IMG/VR virus record: IMGVR_UViG_3300021964_000532 | Coordinates: 1 to 23,928 of that record | Reading direction: 5' to 3' (one strand) | From: a virus | Length of the DNA: 23,928 bases | Shown: in pieces, positions 2,457 to 23,928 of the stretch | Numbering within the stretch: position 1 is the stretch's first letter | How the letters are laid out: each line of letters begins with the position of its first letter | The notes under the pieces: generated by a model | Database searches by the model: none | Told to the model about the DNA's origin: nothing | What the model saw: only the letters and a program-made list of their open reading frames with translations | Translations under genes and position numbers: made by a program

Positions 2457-2903
2457 GTCTTCTTCTTCGTATTCTTCTTCGTCACTTTCAAACTGATCAG
2501 GAAAGGCTTGGGCCATAAGCCCAAAGACCTTTTCAAATCCTAGTGTTTCCATCGCAAACACTATTTCTTTTTCCATAGATTCAGGTGTCATCTCTTCTGC
2601 ATCAGAGTTATTGCCACGAACACGTGACAGTAACTCCAGTGCCTTGAGAGCAGTAGTTCCGTTGCCAGCATTACGAGCAACTTCATACTGCTTCTCAAGT
2701 TCATCGATCACATCGATATCTGTTGTGATACCATTTCTAAGTTCTTCAATGCGTTCCTGAATAGCTGTGTCTTGTAGCAAGCGATAGCCCTGATTGTGGG
2801 CCGATGCTTCACTGTATCCAGCGTCCTTTGCCGCACGAGAAGCGTTGTTATGCAGAATATAATTCTGACAGAACTTTTCTTTTCTTTCGTTAAGCTGCTT
2901 CAT
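2391..2903 (-). CDS. terminase small subunit
   Basis: The 170-residue protein begins with the Terminase_2-type pattern: ERKEKFCQNYILHNNASRAAKDAGYSE, then HNQGYRLLQD and IQERIEEL. This is the helix-turn-helix DNA-recognition domain that binds the packaging site and hands it to the large subunit. The rest is acidic, with a strongly acidic tail (ESDEEEYEEEDLL and a final SDDDA). It is the last gene of the leftward array, its start overlaps the previous gene by 14 bases, and its 3' end overlaps the holin-like gene head-on. The large subunit is at the other end of the window on the opposite strand, an unusual separation. Confidence 0.85.
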   Translation of the reverse strand: MKQLNERKEKFCQNYILHNNASRAAKDAGYSEASAHNQGYRLLQDTAIQERIEELRNGITTDIDVIDELEKQYEVARNAGNGTTALKALELLSRVRGNNSDAEEMTPESMEKEIVFAMETLGFEKVFGLMAQAFPDQFESDEEEYEEEDLLLSEELGGTTDTEAGSDDDA

Positions 2904-5211
2904 TCAACAACTCAGAATAGTGTTTTTCTTGTCCACGCTTGGAAAGCTTCCACACTGCTGCGGCAAGAGTATCTTGGCCGTGGAACGTAACACCCATGTC
3001 CATTTCCATATTGTCAAAAAGTTTTTCACAGTCTTGAGCCATTGCCAAAAGTTCTCCTGTTGTCCAGAACTTCTCACCACCAAGTTCAACCTGCATATAT
3101 TTATTCTTATCAGGCTCTGTATCTGTCTTTTGCTTTTTCTTTTCTTCGGTCATCTCACCTTCAATAGAACAGTCAAAGCCAAAGAGTTCAAAGTTCCTGA
3201 ATCCAAGTGTATGTGCAATGGCGATAGTACGCATTGCAGCGCATGTGCCACCCGTGATTAGTGTAGACCCTTCTTCGATTCCTGTTTCCTTATCAACAAC
3301 AATCTTGTCTTTGATATTCATGTCACGAAGAGCATCTGAATAGGCTTGCCATCCTTTAATGTTAGCACCCTTTGAAAGAAGATACTTTGTAACGGATGGG
3401 TCTGTCATAGATGCGACAAGGAAGATTGTTTCTTCGTCCACAGTCTTGAACAAATCTTTACGGACTACGCCGTGTGTGCTTGTTCCTTCAATGGGACGTG
3501 GATCAAGAATAACGCAAGAAAAGGGCTGGATACCTTTCTCAAGAAGTTTTGGATAGCTATGCTTGACGCAGAAGACTTTGTTGTCTGTTTTTGAGATACG
3601 CTTTTTCAGCAGATCAAAGTCAATGCTATGACCACCGGAAACAATGATGGCTGTTTCTGTATTGACCTTACTTGTCTTGATCCAATCAAAATCCTTGATA
3701 AGATTTTTGTTTTGTTTTACGTTGTCGATGATCTCCTGCTTTGGGCGAGAGTCTTTTGGTGTAACTACAATGGGTACACGTGTAAACTCATCCGGAAGTT
3801 TTGTAGTACCTTCTTTGTTTGCTACAAAAACAAGATGAGTAATGCCACCTCCAAGGACAGGATCAGACGAAGGAAGAACCACTTTTGCATACGCTTCAAT
3901 CTCCTTTACAAGTTTGTTCACACCAAGATTGTCTTCGTGTGGAAGTTGTTTGTTCTGGTCTTCGGAAAAGAAATCATCAAACACAAGGATGGGAATGTGC
4001 TTCAGATTTTCGTAGTCTGACTTGACCGTCTCATACGAATGACCACCATCAATATATGCAAAGTCTGCCTTCTTCACAGCCTTACATGCTTTCAGGGTTT
4101 CTTTTGTGTCGCCCTTATGAAGCTTAAATGTGAATGTCTTTCCCTGCTCTTTCATCTTGTCAGCAAACTCTGTCAGGCGTTGCCTTACAGCTTCTACAGT
4201 ATTGTGAGCCTTTGAGTTCATTTCATACTTATCGATTTCTGGCGTTGCTTCTTCAAACAAATCAAAGCCAAGGTAGTGAACCTTGTCATGTGTTTGGAAA
4301 GCTGCTGTTGCCATTTGAATAGCACGGCCACCATTCCATGTGCCGGTTTCAACGATTGTCTTTGGCTTATAAAAAGCTACCATCTTAACAAGCTGTGTAT
4401 ATCGTGCAGCATTTACATCAGGCGCAACAGTATTAGAGTTTGCGTTCTTCTTTAGATTGCCTTTGTAATGTGTAAAGAACTCAGACAAGGCCGACTGAGA
4501 GAACGCTGCAAGTCCACTGGCATGTTCTGATAGATTGTTTGTAACCAGACCGTGCGCTTTATAAATATTAAGCAGACGCTCAAAAATAAATCCGTCATGC
4601 CACTCACGATACGTTACAACTTCTCCAATAGTGTAACAACCACGAAGATCGGCAAGCAAGCTGCAAGTATTATGGCAAGCCAGATTAAAGCCCATGAAAC
4701 TTGTTTCACTGTAGTCTGCATCCTTTCTACCAAGATGAACAAGGTCTGCCTGTTCGGGCAACCACTGTTTAAATTTATTTAGTTCTAGACGTTTGGTTGT
4801 TACCGTGTCTGCATCCAGCCAGATAAGCCAGTTGTCGGGGAAGGGAACACCACCGCCTTCAAGAAGTTTTTGATCTGCTTCCATCATCTCGAAAGCAAGT
4901 TCAGTCATGGCGTAAACTTTATGGCACCACTTGATCGCATCAAGCCGCCAGTTGTACGGCATCTTGCCGCCTTCTGTTCCATCGTGAAGTTTCATACGTT
5001 CACGATACTGTACCATTTCTTCTACGTCGTTAAGATTGCGATAATGAATGTTGTCAGCCATAGGGGGAGACACACTTTCAATGTCAAAATCATGGTAGTA
5101 TGCCACGAGTTCAAACTCTGCAGGATTCCATTTGTCCACCACGCTCTGTAGCATGTTCTTAGCATATTCATGATATCCACTTTCATTAAATGATGTTACA
5201 AAAGTATACAT
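2890..5211 (-). CDS. three-domain protein: glycosyltransferase-like, SAM methyltransferase, DUF115-like
   Basis: A 773-residue cytosolic protein. Residues ~1-255 look like a GT-A glycosyltransferase with WLDADT (Asp133-Ala-Asp135) as the metal-binding DxD. Residues ~270-465 form a class I SAM methyltransferase of the Methyltransf_24 type: IVETGTWNGGR near 287-296, YIDGGHS near 386-392, FDDF near 411-414. Residues ~515-773 resemble the DUF115/MAF-type fold: AIIVSGGHS near 521-529, CVILDPRP near 566-573, then FELFGFDCS. Such proteins act on surface sugars or flagellin glycans. The start at 5211 has GGAG about 10 bases upstream and overlaps the preceding glycosyltransferase stop (TAATG). The likely target is host surface glycan, virion protein or DNA; I cannot tell which. 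Confidence 0.75.
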   Translation of the reverse strand: MYTFVTSFNESGYHEYAKNMLQSVVDKWNPAEFELVAYYHDFDIESVSPPMADNIHYRNLNDVEEMVQYRERMKLHDGTEGGKMPYNWRLDAIKWCHKVYAMTELAFEMMEADQKLLEGGGVPFPDNWLIWLDADTVTTKRLELNKFKQWLPEQADLVHLGRKDADYSETSFMGFNLACHNTCSLLADLRGCYTIGEVVTYREWHDGFIFERLLNIYKAHGLVTNNLSEHASGLAAFSQSALSEFFTHYKGNLKKNANSNTVAPDVNAARYTQLVKMVAFYKPKTIVETGTWNGGRAIQMATAAFQTHDKVHYLGFDLFEEATPEIDKYEMNSKAHNTVEAVRQRLTEFADKMKEQGKTFTFKLHKGDTKETLKACKAVKKADFAYIDGGHSYETVKSDYENLKHIPILVFDDFFSEDQNKQLPHEDNLGVNKLVKEIEAYAKVVLPSSDPVLGGGITHLVFVANKEGTTKLPDEFTRVPIVVTPKDSRPKQEIIDNVKQNKNLIKDFDWIKTSKVNTETAIIVSGGHSIDFDLLKKRISKTDNKVFCVKHSYPKLLEKGIQPFSCVILDPRPIEGTSTHGVVRKDLFKTVDEETIFLVASMTDPSVTKYLLSKGANIKGWQAYSDALRDMNIKDKIVVDKETGIEEGSTLITGGTCAAMRTIAIAHTLGFRNFELFGFDCSIEGEMTEEKKKQKTDTEPDKNKYMQVELGGEKFWTTGELLAMAQDCEKLFDNMEMDMGVTFHGQDTLAAAVWKLSKRGQEKHYSELLNEAA

Positions 5212-5984
5212 TAAATTATATCTCCTAGTGCGTCGTTGTAAAATACTTCTTTGTGTTTGACCTGCCATTCCCCTGCATATTCAGAATCGATATCTCTTTT
5301 AGGTTCCCATTCGGCAAACCAAGGACCACCTGTAGTAAAGTGTACGTTCTTTGGTGTGATCCTTTCGTCTGACCAACCGTCCAGCCAGTTCCATTCTTCC
5401 GGAATACTACCAATCTCTTCGTCTTTCAACCAAGACATTCCATGTAGCCAAGAACCAGACTTTGTGTTAGCATCGTCCACACTTAGATTAATATTAGCTG
5501 GGTGACCGCAGTTGAAGAGCATAAAGCTTGACCAGTTCTTTCGGTTGTAGCTTTGCTGAATCTGTCCGTCCATCTTTATGGTAGCTGATGGGTTGTAGTT
5601 GTGTTTAACACAGTGAAGTGCGATGTCTTTGTTGCTGCCGTATGTTTCAAAGACTTCTTCAATGTCAGCTTTAACAAACATGTCAGAGTCCATGAACAGG
5701 GCAAGACCTTCGTACTGATTGAGTGCAGGAATTAGAAAACGAGTGAAGGTAAACTCCGTACTAAACGGACGACCATCAAACGTATCTACCATTACCCTTT
5801 GGCCATCAATACTGTCGAGCCTAGCAGAACGACGATAAAGACCTGCTCTACGAAGTGCGGTCTGAACCAGTGGGATAACATCAAACTTCTTGTTGTATTC
5901 CATAATTGAACTGCGTAGAACATCATAGGCAATCTTCTCCCTTTTATCAAATCCAACATAAATTACAGGGCGTTTTTCAAACAT
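5211..5984 (-). CDS. glycosyltransferase, GT-A fold, GT8-like
   Basis: This 257-residue protein starts with the nucleotide-sugar-binding type of strand (VIYVGFDKRE), then FTRFLIPAL and the DxD motif FMDSDMF (Asp99-Ser-Asp101). A later segment carries FMLFNCGH, LDGWSDE and THFTTGGP-like features (NVHFTTGGPW) that fit a sugar-acceptor pocket. It should transfer a sugar from a nucleotide-sugar donor in the cytosol. The ribosome site AAAGGAG lies 6-7 bases before the ATG. It overlaps the three-domain gene downstream by one base, so both are probably made together and act in one modification pathway. Confidence 0.75.
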   Translation of the reverse strand: MFEKRPVIYVGFDKREKIAYDVLRSSIMEYNKKFDVIPLVQTALRRAGLYRRSARLDSIDGQRVMVDTFDGRPFSTEFTFTRFLIPALNQYEGLALFMDSDMFVKADIEEVFETYGSNKDIALHCVKHNYNPSATIKMDGQIQQSYNRKNWSSFMLFNCGHPANINLSVDDANTKSGSWLHGMSWLKDEEIGSIPEEWNWLDGWSDERITPKNVHFTTGGPWFAEWEPKRDIDSEYAGEWQVKHKEVFYNDALGDII

Positions 5985-20515: not shown

Positions 20516-21223
20516 CTATGCTACATCGATTACAAAACCGGACTGGTCTTGCTTTGCTTTGCCCTTGGCATACAGGGCCACGACTACGCCGTCCGGGTCT
20601 AGGAAGCGCAGATCGTCCTTGTCACCGTCCACCACGGGCATTCCCTTGAAGGTGGCCGGGATACTGTCCTTGTCACGGAACACCACCGCCAGATTTGCAT
20701 TGTGCGTCCGGGCGGCGTCGAGACACATATCAGCATAGCGTTGGTTTGCTTCGCTGTAGGATAGTGTCAGATGATAGTTTGCAGGGCGTGGTTTGCCCAT
20801 CCGGCTGACGTTTTTGGTGTAGTCATAGAATTGAACATCAGCGAATTCGCCAGCCATATCCACATGCAATTCCCAGTTTATGTCGGACGTTCCGTTGATC
20901 CGTACCACCGGCTGAATGTTTTTCTTCTGGCAGTATTTCCTAAACTGCCGGATATCGTTGGCCAGATCGGCAAGGAACATGTCCCGGTGATCCCGCCAGT
21001 AAATCGTTTTACGCATCCGGGCTTGCTGTACCGAATTCATGGCACCACGTCCGGCGGTGTTTAGGCACCCGGCTTTGCATCCGGCCATCACTGCCATCGG
21101 GCAGAGATTGATACCGTCCACCGTATCAGCCGGTGCGAGATACAGGATGGCAGTCAGATATTCTGATCCGTCACCCTTCACGGTTTTTGCGTTGTTGCCA
21201 ACGCCGAGCAGTTTCAGTTTCAT
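20516..21223 (-). CDS. phage gp88-family protein
   Basis: A 235-residue protein that I recognise as the family named 'gene product 88' after mycobacteriophages. Its motifs are KTVKGDGSEYLTAILYLAPA, then LCPMAVMAGCKAGCLNTAGRG with Cys41, Cys49 and Cys53, RINGTSDINWE, VQFYDYTK, LTLSYSEAN, LRFLDPDGVVVAL and a final SGFVIDVA. The three conserved Cys suggest a metal or Fe-S site, but the spacing (C-x7-C-x3-C) is not the radical-SAM CxxxCxxC. Activity is unknown. AAAGGA stands 7 bases before the ATG. It follows a hairpin terminator-like element and may be separately expressed. Confidence 0.75.
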   Translation of the reverse strand: MKLKLLGVGNNAKTVKGDGSEYLTAILYLAPADTVDGINLCPMAVMAGCKAGCLNTAGRGAMNSVQQARMRKTIYWRDHRDMFLADLANDIRQFRKYCQKKNIQPVVRINGTSDINWELHVDMAGEFADVQFYDYTKNVSRMGKPRPANYHLTLSYSEANQRYADMCLDAARTHNANLAVVFRDKDSIPATFKGMPVVDGDKDDLRFLDPDGVVVALYAKGKAKQDQSGFVIDVA

Positions 21224-21269: not shown

Positions 21270-21300
21270 CGGGTGATCTAGATCATGTCCAGATCACCCG
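21270..21300 (-). terminator. hairpin, possible terminator between small genes
   Basis: A perfect 10-bp stem CGGGTGATCT / AGATCACCCG with an 11-base loop lies in the 84-base gap between the stop of the 111-residue gene and the gp88-like start. On the minus strand it is followed by CTATTTATT, only partly U-rich. On the plus strand it is followed by GTGGTTTTT. It may be a leaky terminator or an RNA-stabilising or processing hairpin that sets expression of the downstream array. Confidence 0.55.
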
Positions 21301-21307
21301 GTGGTTT

Positions 21308-21643
21308 TTATGCGGCCATGTCTTGCTGGCCACCATCCGTTGCTTGCCACCATTCTTCGATCCACTGGGCATAGTCACTGGCCGAATAGTCCGACAAGGT
21401 TTCTTCTGGTTCGTTGCCATGGATCAGGCTGGCCCATCCGGCATAGGTCTCTTCGCCAGTCTCAGGATCGATATGGATGAATTCCAATGCGATCCAATCC
21501 ATACATTGCGCTTCTTCCCACGCCTTGGCCACGTTCTGGCCACGATAGAAAACTTCCGAGCAATCGTCCGGGTCCTGTACGGAAACATGGAAGCCCATGT
21601 GATTGATTGCGTGTTTGATCAATTGATATCCTGAATTCCGCAT
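21308..21643 (-). CDS. hypothetical acidic protein
   Basis: A 111-residue protein starting MRNSGYQLIKHAINHMG. It has a beta part (FHVSVQDPDD), then KAWEEAQCMDWIALEFIHID and a very acidic, Trp-rich end (DYAQWIEEWWQATDGG). AAAGGA lies 8 bases before the ATG. No domain recognised; its charge and its place near the start of the leftward array would suit an early host-interacting protein, but that is conjecture. Confidence 0.6.
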   Translation of the reverse strand: MRNSGYQLIKHAINHMGFHVSVQDPDDCSEVFYRGQNVAKAWEEAQCMDWIALEFIHIDPETGEETYAGWASLIHGNEPEETLSDYSASDYAQWIEEWWQATDGGQQDMAA

Positions 21644-21657
21644 CGGTTTATCCTTTC

Positions 21658-21837
21658 CTAGCGAGTGATAAAGATTTGCTGGCTTTTGCCAAACACATCA
21701 GCGAACACGGCGTAGCGTAATCCGTGAATGCTGCGACGTTCCCTAGCTTCTCGAATTGCATCCTTTGCATCCGTGAATTTCAGATTTGCTTTCGGCCACC
21801 ATTGGCCATTGCGAGTTTTGACTGCGACTTGAAACAT
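21658..21837 (-). CDS. 59-residue hypothetical protein
   Basis: A short frame giving MFQVAVKTRNGQWWPKAN, then FTDAKDAIREARERRS and a final strand pair (YAVFADVFGKSQQIFITR). AAAGGA lies 8 bases before the ATG. The strand-helix-strand layout matches other small proteins of this array. It is about 62 bases downstream of one of the two identical hairpin elements. Function unknown. Confidence 0.65.
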   Translation of the reverse strand: MFQVAVKTRNGQWWPKANLKFTDAKDAIREARERRSIHGLRYAVFADVFGKSQQIFITR

Positions 21838-21896
21838 GTGATCGATCCTTTCTGATCGGTTGCTATCGCCAACACCAAGCCCGGCGATTTGGGCTA

Positions 21897-21954
21897 AACA
21901 ATATCTCTCTCTCTTATCTTACCCCTAAAGGGGTAAGAGAGAGAGATATTGATC
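21897..21954 (-). repeat. hairpin element, copy 1 of 2
   Basis: A long inverted repeat at 21899-21951. The 3' arm of 22 bases (GGGGTAAGAGAG then AGAGATATTG) pairs completely with the 5' arm, which carries one 5-base bulge; the loop is TAAA. The element is identical over about 58 bases to the copy at 22124-22181, and the flanks also share CGATTTGG on the left. It starts 7 bases after the stop of the 33-residue gene and ends 61 bases before the ATG of the 59-residue gene on the minus strand. Confidence 0.85.
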
Positions 21955-21958
21955 TGGG

Positions 21959-22060
21959 TTATTTGGCCGGTTTGATCAGCCGGAAAATTTCCCATCCGAT
22001 CACTGCCAGCGGAACCCATACCGGCGACGTGATCAGCGTGATCATGATTGCTTGGATCAT
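21959..22060 (-). CDS. 33-residue single-pass membrane protein
   Basis: A tiny frame starting MIQAIMITLITSPVWVP and containing one membrane helix (LITSPVWVPLAVIGWEIF) with a basic end (RLIKPAK). AAGGGAAA lies about 9 bases before the ATG at 22060, which favours this short form over a longer in-frame start that would run through the hairpin element. It is the first gene of the leftward array and is framed by the two identical hairpin elements. Function unknown; one-helix phage proteins often act on host membrane enzymes. Confidence 0.5.
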   Translation of the reverse strand: MIQAIMITLITSPVWVPLAVIGWEIFRLIKPAK

Positions 22061-22123
22061 GGTCGTGTTTCCCTTGCGGTTGATTGATCGCCCATTGCGT
22101 TTTGGCTGGACGATTTGGCCAAG

Positions 22124-22181
22124 AACAATATCTCTCTCTCTTATCTTACCCCTAAAGGGGTAAGAGAGAGAGATATTGATT
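22124..22181 (-). repeat. hairpin element, copy 2 of 2
   Basis: The second identical copy; its inverted repeat is at 22126-22178 with the same TAAA loop and 5-base bulge. On the minus strand it lies about 65 bases before the ATG of the 33-residue gene, close to the distance of copy 1 from its gene. With the same spacing twice, it is more likely a cis-acting control, such as a leader hairpin, than a random insertion. Confidence 0.85.
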
Positions 22182-22204: not shown

Positions 22205-22283
22205 GATCGTCAAATCGGTTGATCGTGATCGTCAAATCGGCCAGCGCAAATCGTCACACGGATCGTCAAAAGCTTGACGGATC
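22205..22283 (+). repeat. GATCGTCAAATCGG iterons in 22-bp phase
   Basis: GATCGTCAAATCGG occurs at 22205-22218 and 22227-22240. A degenerate copy (ATCGTCACACGG) is in phase at about 22249-22261. The repeat starts are exactly 22 bases apart, two helical turns, so bound proteins would sit on one face. A further GATCGTCAAA follows at 22261, merging with the first GTCAA-N4-TTGAC dyad, and half-repeats GATCG occur at 22221 and 22280. This looks like a protein-binding iteron array. Confidence 0.75.
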
Positions 22284-22307
22284 GATGAAGCCGATGGCCA
22301 AAAAAAT

Positions 22308-22355
22308 AAATAAAAAAACTATTTATTTCTAAAGAACTAAATAGTTTTTTTATTT
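22308..22355. terminator. 18-bp AT-rich hairpin, possible bidirectional terminator
   Basis: Arms at 22308-22325 and 22338-22355 are perfect complements over 18 bp (AAATAAAAAAACTATTTA on the left), with a 12-base loop. A-runs on the left and T-runs on the right give U-rich tracts on both strands, so it could stop transcription from either side, or serve as a structured part of an origin. Confidence 0.65.
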
Positions 22356-22424
22356 AAAATCAGAAACTTGGCTAGGTTTTGGGAAGATTTGGGAAGATTG
22401 CCGAAGTGTCAGGATTTTGACATT

Positions 22425-22445
22425 ATTAACCCTTATCGGGTTAAT
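22425..22445. other. 8-bp hairpin ATTAACCC/GGGTTAAT
   Basis: A perfect 8-bp inverted repeat with a 5-base loop (TTATC) follows four bases after the second GTCAA-N4-TTGAC dyad. TTGACA at 22417-22422 with GTTAAT 17 bases on (22440-22445) also looks like a weak plus-strand promoter, with the hairpin covering its -10. Role unknown. Confidence 0.4.
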
Positions 22446-22521
22446 CTTGGGAAAACTAGGGGGGACTAGGGGGGTCTATGTCAATCTTTTGACGCCATGA
22501 TTGTCAAAGTTTTGACAATAA

Positions 22522-22565
22522 AAAAAAGTCAATAAAAATCTTTAGAGATTTTTATTGACTTTTTT
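22522..22565. terminator. 20-bp AT-rich hairpin, bidirectional terminator-like
   Basis: Arms at 22522-22541 and 22546-22565 are perfect complements over 20 bp with the tetraloop TTAG. Six or more A at the left base and T at the right base give a terminator-like U-run in both directions. It stands between the fourth and fifth dyads, and its arms contain further GTCAA and TTGAC half sites. It would insulate the two divergent transcription units. Confidence 0.75.
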
Positions 22566-22610
22566 GTCCTGGCAAAATCTGTCAAGATTTTGACGGTGAA
22601 AAGGATTCTT

Positions 22611-22947: not shown

Positions 22948-23148
22948 ATGTTTACAGCTGTGATTTTAGCTTGCTTCATCGATGCGTCTTGTGTAGAATT
23001 TGTAGATAGGTACGGTCCATATAAAACTGAACTGGAATGTAAAGCCCGTGTAGCAGAAATGGTACAGGATATTATGTCAGTTGAAGGGACACCACCAGTA
23101 TCTAGAATTCTTTTTAAGTGTGACGTAAAGCAGGGAACAAAAACATAA
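22948..23148 (+). CDS. small cysteine-containing hypothetical protein before the terminase
   Basis: A 66-residue protein starting MFTAVILACFIDASCVEF. The short hydrophobic N-terminus could be a weak export signal. The rest reads YGPYKTELECKARVAEMV and ends ILFKCDVKQGTKT, with four Cys in total. The gene ends immediately before the terminase start, so they are co-transcribed. It has only a weak ribosome site (AGG). I recall similar small proteins in marine phages, uncharacterised. An exported or periplasmic role is possible. Confidence 0.6.
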   Translation: MFTAVILACFIDASCVEFVDRYGPYKTELECKARVAEMVQDIMSVEGTPPVSRILFKCDVKQGTKT

Positions 23149-23928
23149 ATGTTAGATGACACTATTGGTACAGAAGACCTGCCGGAACTTTCCGGTATGG
23201 GAGACTATATACGTCTAAAAGACAGTTTGACAAAGTATACCAACGTCCGGGCCAAAGAAGACTTCCTTACCTTTGTAAAGATGTTTGCGCCTACGCTGGT
23301 ATCTGACTTTGAGATGGGAAGACATATTGAACTTCTCTGTGAAAAGCTGCAGGGAGTGGTAGAAGGAGACGTGAAACGTCTTATGGTGTTTCTCCCGCCA
23401 CGCTCGTCTAAGTCTCTTATCTGTAGCAAACTATTTCCTGCGTGGTATATAGGTAATTACGCAAACCATGAGATAATGTCTGTGTCACACAGTGACCAGC
23501 TTGCCAGTGACTTTGGCCGGTCAGTCAGGGACATTGTAAATACAGAAAGATTCCAGCGTATTTTTCGTGGTGTGTCCCTACGCAGTGACGTTAAAGCAGC
23601 AGGTAAATGGAAAACAAATAAAAATGGCTCGTATTACGCAGCAGGTGTACGAAGTCAGGTTGCAGGTCGTGGTGCTCACGTAGCCTTGCTTGACGACGTT
23701 ATGTCTGAAGAAGACAGCTTCAGTGAAGCAGGGCGTAGGTATATTAAGGAATGGTATCCTGCAGGTCTGCGTACACGTATTATGCCCAATGGAGCCATCA
23801 TTATTATCAACACACGTTATCATTATGATGACCTGTGTGGTTGGCTGTTGAAACAGGAACAGAATGCAGAAGAAAGCGTATACCCGTGGGAAGTAATTAG
23901 TATCCCTGCATGGCTAGACGAGCCAGCA
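23149..23928 (+). CDS. terminase large subunit (N-terminal ATPase part, 3' end outside window)
   Basis: The first 260 residues of the DNA-packaging motor are present; the frame is open to the window end. The ATPase part shows an atypical Walker A, LPPRSSKS (about 82-89), the form common in terminases. It also has IMSVSHSDQLASDFGRSVRD, an adenine-side segment, AGVRSQVAGRGAHVALLDD with Walker B acidic residues Asp182-Asp183, and IIIINTRYHYDDLCGW, the coupling motif region. It translocates DNA into the procapsid using ATP; the nuclease domain lies beyond the window. Its small subunit is at 2391-2903 on the other strand, about 20 kb away across the early genes. Confidence 0.9.
   Translation, partial: MLDDTIGTEDLPELSGMGDYIRLKDSLTKYTNVRAKEDFLTFVKMFAPTLVSDFEMGRHIELLCEKLQGVVEGDVKRLMVFLPPRSSKSLICSKLFPAWYIGNYANHEIMSVSHSDQLASDFGRSVRDIVNTERFQRIFRGVSLRSDVKAAGKWKTNKNGSYYAAGVRSQVAGRGAHVALLDDVMSEEDSFSEAGRRYIKEWYPAGLRTRIMPNGAIIIINTRYHYDDLCGWLLKQEQNAEESVYPWEVISIPAWLDEPA

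Follow-up and report, generated by a model that had tools for sequence, protein, structure and literature searches.

Twin hairpins in a leftward operon

The window, the whole 23.9-kb stretch of IMG/VR record IMGVR_UViG_3300021964_000532, is a fragment of an uncultured tailed phage that we assign to marine or saline water. Its leftward operon of small genes carries two identical copies of a long hairpin, each placed ahead of a very short gene (Table 1). The preliminary description had presented these as twin 58-bp elements; the identical repeat is real, with an exact length of 57 nt rather than 58 (21897-21953 matches 22124-22180, and extension to 60 nt gives 59/60 identity). Folded as RNA in the sense of the genes, the two twins have minimum free energies of -33.8 and -34.9 kcal/mol (z of -7.5 and -7.1), a stability reached by none of 200 shuffled sequences. 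Five hairpins of the window score at least 14, namely the twins, one hairpin further upstream and two of the T-rich, terminator-like kind; 20 dinucleotide shuffles of the window yielded none.

Hairpin 1 lies between a stop codon and the ribosome-binding site of the next gene, hairpin 2 before the first gene of the operon. The distances of 60-65 nt to the tiny genes given preliminarily agree with the 61 and 65 nt that we measure to the leftward starts at 21837 and 22060, and the surrounding sequence does differ, the two leaders being unlike apart from CCAAATCG. Two further features had escaped that description: (i) hairpin 1 begins 7 nt past the stop of the 33-aa gene, and (ii) a third hairpin, at 21270-21300 (z of -7.0), shares the twins' stop-hairpin-start placement, lying 7 nt past the stop of the gene at 21308-21643 and 46 nt before the start at 21223. 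A terminator scan reports this third hairpin, but with the weak tail CTATTTATTA. By comparison with the sequences of related phages, the twins are members of a family of long, predicted intergenic RNA hairpins in uncultured aquatic phages.

Table 1. Features of the hairpin-bearing part of the leftward operon, in window coordinates
Feature	Coordinates	Strand	Description
GP88 family protein (PF17338)	20516..21223	(-)	downstream end of hairpin-bearing gene cluster
Third intergenic hairpin	21270..21300	(-)	sequence unrelated to twins; stem of 13 bp with one G-U pair (leftward sense) and a 5-nt loop
111-aa gene	21308..21643	(-)	homologue in G005/L013 flanked on both sides by class-member hairpins
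59-aa gene	21658..21837	(-)	downstream of hairpin 1; 58-aa homologues in L028, L185
61-nt leader	21838..21898	(-)	from hairpin 1 to 59-aa gene; ribosome-binding site AGAAAGGA
Hairpin 1	21899..21951	(-)	53 nt, 22 bp, 4-nt UUUA loop, 5-nt bulge on 3' arm, leftward sense
33-aa gene	21959..22060	(-)	likely single-pass membrane peptide, by inspection
65-nt leader	22061..22125	(-)	from hairpin 2 to 33-aa gene; CCAAATCG common to both leaders, rest differs
Hairpin 2	22126..22178	(-)	copy identical to hairpin 1; precedes first leftward gene

The hairpin family: placement and turnover

A survey of relatives for the element and its copy number, as proposed preliminarily, did reveal a family. When 259 loci (2.2 Mb, for the most part relatives of the TerL, GP88 and polymerase proteins) were searched mechanically for hairpins, comparable ones turned up in many phages; in IMG/VR relatives they have 16-24 bp and number 1-9 copies per phage. 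Four sequence classes stand out, described here in sense orientation: (i) hairpins of 49-54 nt and 20-23 bp whose 3' arm bulges by 3-5 nt at 5-8 bp from the loop (the window, L004, L027, L028, L185, G005/L013 and L212); (ii) hairpins of 47-53 nt with ends TATTAG...CTTATA, whose 3' arm has a bulge of 1 or 3 nt and whose stem has a U-U mismatch close to its base (L044, L055, L056, G014, L196 and L041); (iii) hairpins of 42-44 nt and 17-18 bp with mostly TTAA ends, a 6-7-nt CUUAUG-type loop and, on the 5' side, either a U-U mismatch or a bulged U (G012, G013, L076/L217, L078 and L081), followed by a recurrent ribosome-binding module, roughly GATAacggTTTTGGAGGccgaATG; and (iv) 53-nt hairpins of A and T only, with 24 pairs, at the same kind of site (L068 40-92 and 194-246; L221 4738-4790). 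An Rfam search (E<=1) placed no family above its gathering threshold and returned only sub-threshold miRNA- or snoRNA-like chance matches.

Placement was measured at 29 sites from nine phage records, using our own, partly hand-checked gene calls. The gap between stop codon and hairpin ranges from -4 to +13 nt (median 3; 20 sites), and that between hairpin and next start codon has a median of 37.5 nt (28 sites, mostly 14-74 nt). The window (22126), L028 and L185 also have a hairpin ahead of the operon's first gene. Relative to the gene, the loop motif and the side of the bulge are constant in every copy of a class. The near-complete relatives have their hairpins only in the TerL-proximal small-gene operon: the 57-kb G012 carries nine in one 5-kb stretch of it, against 0.1 of score at least 14 expected in the whole genome, and only weaker scan hits in its structural genes. 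In the same phage, some 145 nt between two hairpins (L191 3996-4142) hold no clear sense-strand gene; a decayed cassette or a gene for an RNA might account for them.

No run of U follows the twins on either strand, nor any other class member, so the hairpins are not standard terminators. Attenuators or terminators of an unusual kind, for instance ones needing a phage or host factor, would account for long stable hairpins at gene ends and for the appearance of 21270-21300 in the terminator scan. We nevertheless think them very improbable, given the missing U-tract and the different look of an ordinary T-run terminator-like hairpin nearby (22522-22565). The elements were also compared with integron attC sites and lack the RYYYAAC...GTTRRRY pattern, their ends being CAATA...TATTG, TTAA...TTAA and TATTAG...CTTATA.

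Within classes, pairing is kept amid sequence change. Among 15 class iii hairpins, 93% of cells pair, 53 cells are changed on both arms, and such two-sided changes occur at 12/18 pairs; shuffled controls average 15.8 two-sided cells with 0/500 reaching 53, and pairing collapses when the partner is slid by one column. Because MAFFT alignments misplace the bulge of the 53-nt and TATTAG classes, their pairs were numbered from the loop towards the base. Ten pairwise comparisons within class i gave 1 to 17 two-sided changes each and not one that was one-sided; even the two copies of L185 differ at five outer pairs, each on both arms (5 two-sided, 0 one-sided). An unvarying orientation, a constant position from stop to start and conserved pairing together suggest that the element works at the level of the transcript.

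The stem sequence agrees within a genome and differs between phages. L028 and L185 are 94% identical upstream of their hairpins and 83% between them, and only 56% and 70% within them, both copies having switched together. Conversely, one class iii hairpin is identical (43/43) in G012, G013 and L076 and precedes an orthologous gene, while the upstream flank is only about 34-37% identical, thus unrelated, in both comparisons with G012. A homologous gene of L027 and L056 (32% identity, E 7e-15) is preceded by a hairpin in each, and the two hairpins have different sequences. In these comparisons of flanks, hairpins and genes, the hairpin thus persists in position and shape as its stem sequence is replaced.

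The exact identity of the twins had been taken to imply a recent duplication or strong selection; a recent duplication is too simple, because the matching sites in relatives hold hairpins of their own with different sequence. Nor have we seen the proposed deletion of the 33-aa gene by recombination between the repeats: by alignment, the close relatives L028 and L185 keep a 38-aa homologue in the same place between two hairpins. Relatives do, however, visibly differ by swaps at the hairpin positions, either of the hairpin or of adjacent genes, and in G012, G013 and L217 changes in gene order and content coincide with such positions. The hairpins might chiefly be recombination joints, identical sequences at gene borders that allow small-gene cassettes to be exchanged, with any effect on RNA secondary. 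This would suit the identical class iii hairpins with unrelated upstream flanks and the different hairpins that precede one gene in relatives. The exchanges fit, but they are equally expected wherever short genes come and go, and the numbers are small; moreover, any direct repeat would do for this purpose, leaving the hairpin shape, the bulge and the fixed distance from the stop codon unexplained. We regard this explanation as improbable.

Least probable of all is the small palindromic mobile element, also raised preliminarily, which would have been inserted repeatedly. The several near-identical copies per genome and the TTAA...TTAA ends of one class recall such elements, but copies occur only at gene borders of one operon and in a single orientation, inspection of the flanks found no target-site duplication common to the classes, and matching sites in relatives hold hairpins of unrelated sequence, the same gene being preceded by different ones. 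The variable sites and orientations and the target-site duplication that define miniature inverted-repeat transposable elements or repetitive extragenic palindrome (REP)-like elements were thus not found.

Proposed RNA processing and its alternatives

Our preferred reading, held with middling confidence, is that the hairpins may be processing sites of a polycistronic early message, cut by the host RNase III. The leftward small-gene operon would be transcribed as one message, in which each hairpin would fold immediately after one stop codon, with the following gene's ribosome-binding site downstream of it; cleavage by RNase III would split the message into units, giving the upstream gene a 3' hairpin end and the downstream gene a new 5' end before its start. 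Of the roles offered preliminarily, leader RNA hairpins or processing sites fit the intergenic place, the fixed orientation, the co-changing arms and the absence of a U-tract, with the cleavage itself a conjecture from these features. A host enzyme would be needed, because no phage-encoded RNase III was found in seven relatives (the control was positive). The RNase III of Sinorhizobium meliloti, an alphaproteobacterium, is reported to need longer double-stranded RNA (dsRNA) than the Escherichia coli enzyme (PMC6121014), a requirement that would suit these stems if the hosts are alphaproteobacteria. A search for a phage single-subunit RNA polymerase (PF00940) had no match, but neither had its control.

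Several points weigh against this reading. We infer from gene content that the operon is early and read by the host RNA polymerase. The bulge varies: in class i it has 3-5 nt and lies on the 3' arm, whereas class iii shows, on its 5' side, a single bulged U or a U-U mismatch. No comparable hairpins occur in the parts scanned of the cultured relatives HTVC103P, HTVC104P, HTVC115P, HMO-2011 and CRP-804, the first two being relatives by DNA polymerase. The G-U pairs of the gene-sense strand are few, only about 1% of pairs, where selection on RNA alone should give more; the contrast of G-U with A-C mismatches as a test of RNA against DNA involves few events. Finally, template switching during DNA replication could copy one arm of a palindrome onto the other and so mimic compensatory change. 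Two-sided changes alone are therefore no proof of an RNA role, because such correction can also give near-perfect arms. It should also remove the bulge, yet the bulge stays similarly placed within a class, which argues that correction is not the sole cause. Because of the rare G-U pairs and possible template-switch correction, explanations at the DNA level keep real weight.

The chief of these takes the hairpins for DNA operators or stoperator-like sites of a phage protein with lineage-dependent specificity, like the extended start-associated sequences (ESAS), inverted repeats of Cluster K mycobacteriophages. Copies that are alike within a genome and unlike between genomes are what sites following a trans factor would show, ESAS are distributed alike (PMC3203893), and near-absence of G-U pairs agrees. 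Against it, ESAS arms do not co-vary, whereas co-variation here extends over 20 bp and more and includes the outer pairs of L185; an asymmetric bulge and strict orientation would be odd for a dimer site; and the window has separate operator-like palindromes (TGTCAA-N4-TTGACA). We judge the operator explanation rather unlikely.

Next after RNase III processing we rank uncut stabilisers of mRNA ends, although these too are unlikely. Such hairpins would block exonucleases at 3' ends and insulate the next ribosome-binding site, the ends themselves being made by other nucleases. The hairpin before the first gene (22126, L028 and L185) has no upstream gene in need of a 3' end, and a fixed bulge would serve no purpose.

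More broadly, and tentatively, what unites the hairpins as one class of phage RNA element may be their shape and position rather than their sequence. The copies of a genome would have a stem sequence in common, replaced as a unit between close relatives because it co-evolves with a trans factor, which could be an RNA-binding protein of the phage or else dsRNA-reading nucleases or defences of the host; the element would also mark the borders of exchangeable small-gene cassettes. With this family one can test how an RNA element may retain pairing and position under free change of sequence, its copies changing in concert within each genome. The hairpins probably mark where the messages of many unnamed phage genes begin and end, and they are usable as a marker for early-gene cassettes in metagenomes.

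Gene setting and known systems

The leftward genes of the window include those for GP88, DNA primase/helicase, DNA polymerase A, a Cas4-like nuclease and ribonucleotide reductase, with TerL reading rightward at 23149. Cultured matches by TerL include HTVC023P-type pelagiphages at 35-38% identity, the first cultured match by GP88 is HMO-2011, and those by DNA polymerase are HTVC103P/104P/115P; a DNA search of the phage collection, for near and distant relatives, gave no nucleotide match to cultured phages. Two scans of genome contigs for a host gave no match for the TerL protein or the hairpin motif.

We also note some further features of the window: (i) Five copies of the palindrome TGTCAA-N4-TTGACA lie between the leftward operon and TerL (22264-22595), with eight strand matches of up to two mismatches against 0.5 expected; they are likely operators of a phage regulator. 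(ii) Long A/T-tract hairpins of the bidirectional-terminator type stand between the divergent operons at 22307-22356, with a counterpart conserved in L028 and L185, and at 22514-22568. That they stand upstream of the first leftward gene is odd unless the promoter lies between them and the gene. (iii) A 66-aa gene directly before TerL (22948-23145) is conserved clade-wide with invariant cysteines and has no Pfam or PHROG match. (iv) A 792-aa protein (2893-5984) joins a methyltransferase domain to an MptE-like domain, and the adjoining 257-aa protein has a weak glycosyltransferase-8 match.

Our literature search found nothing specific on intergenic processing hairpins in marine phages and, for the marine phages that it covered, no description of a comparable many-site layout; the papers on HTVC023P-type phages among these do not mention hairpins. 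The cultured pelagiphages HTVC023P and HTVC027P themselves have one or two perfect or near-perfect hairpins of 12-15 bp, 8-14 nt past a stop codon near TerL and GP88. These are shorter than ours, fewer and without a bulge, and their membership of the family is only possible. One of them, a 15-bp hairpin of HTVC027P (L282 19229-19261), lies 8 nt past a stop codon, with the next start codon 17 nt on; for this Pelagibacter phage, RNA-seq of infected HTCC1062 is published (PMC12753301).

The closest published parallel in distribution is ESAS with its start-associated sequence (SAS), in which multi-copy inverted repeats stand upstream of starts of non-structural genes with a subcluster-specific consensus (PMC3203893). 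Multi-copy inverted repeats upstream of non-structural starts are likewise what we find, and class iii hairpins are followed by a conserved ribosome-binding module, TTTTGGAGGCCGA-ATG, as SAS follows ESAS. The adjacent 13-bp SAS itself (GGGATAGGAGCCC) has no match with up to two mismatches in the window. Departures between ESAS arms do not support RNA pairing, whereas here two-sided changes dominate and co-variation of the arms is almost perfect.

For T7, the processing of an early operon by RNase III is textbook biology. At its sites R0.3, R0.5, R1, R1.1 and R1.3, hairpins repeat in the early-gene gaps from stop codon to ribosome-binding site, as here, and in both cases the hairpins of a genome resemble one another and the helix is interrupted by an asymmetric loop or bulge. 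The R1.1 substrate has an asymmetric internal loop (PMC6121014). As a positive control, our scan of T7 recovered the R1.3 hairpin between stop and start, and folding of the other early gaps gave hairpins at R0.5, R1 and R1.1. The T7 sites differ in having about 10 bp and a weak lower stem, against 20-24 bp of almost pure Watson-Crick pairs here, where the bulge is on one arm only and the stem sequence is unlike between close relatives; in our phages cleavage is a prediction. Like T7, these phages have several hairpins per genome in the gaps of one operon, and the T7-type pattern, a dsRNA helix of some two turns that an asymmetric loop or bulge interrupts, is present in the class of the window and weaker in the 42-44-nt class.
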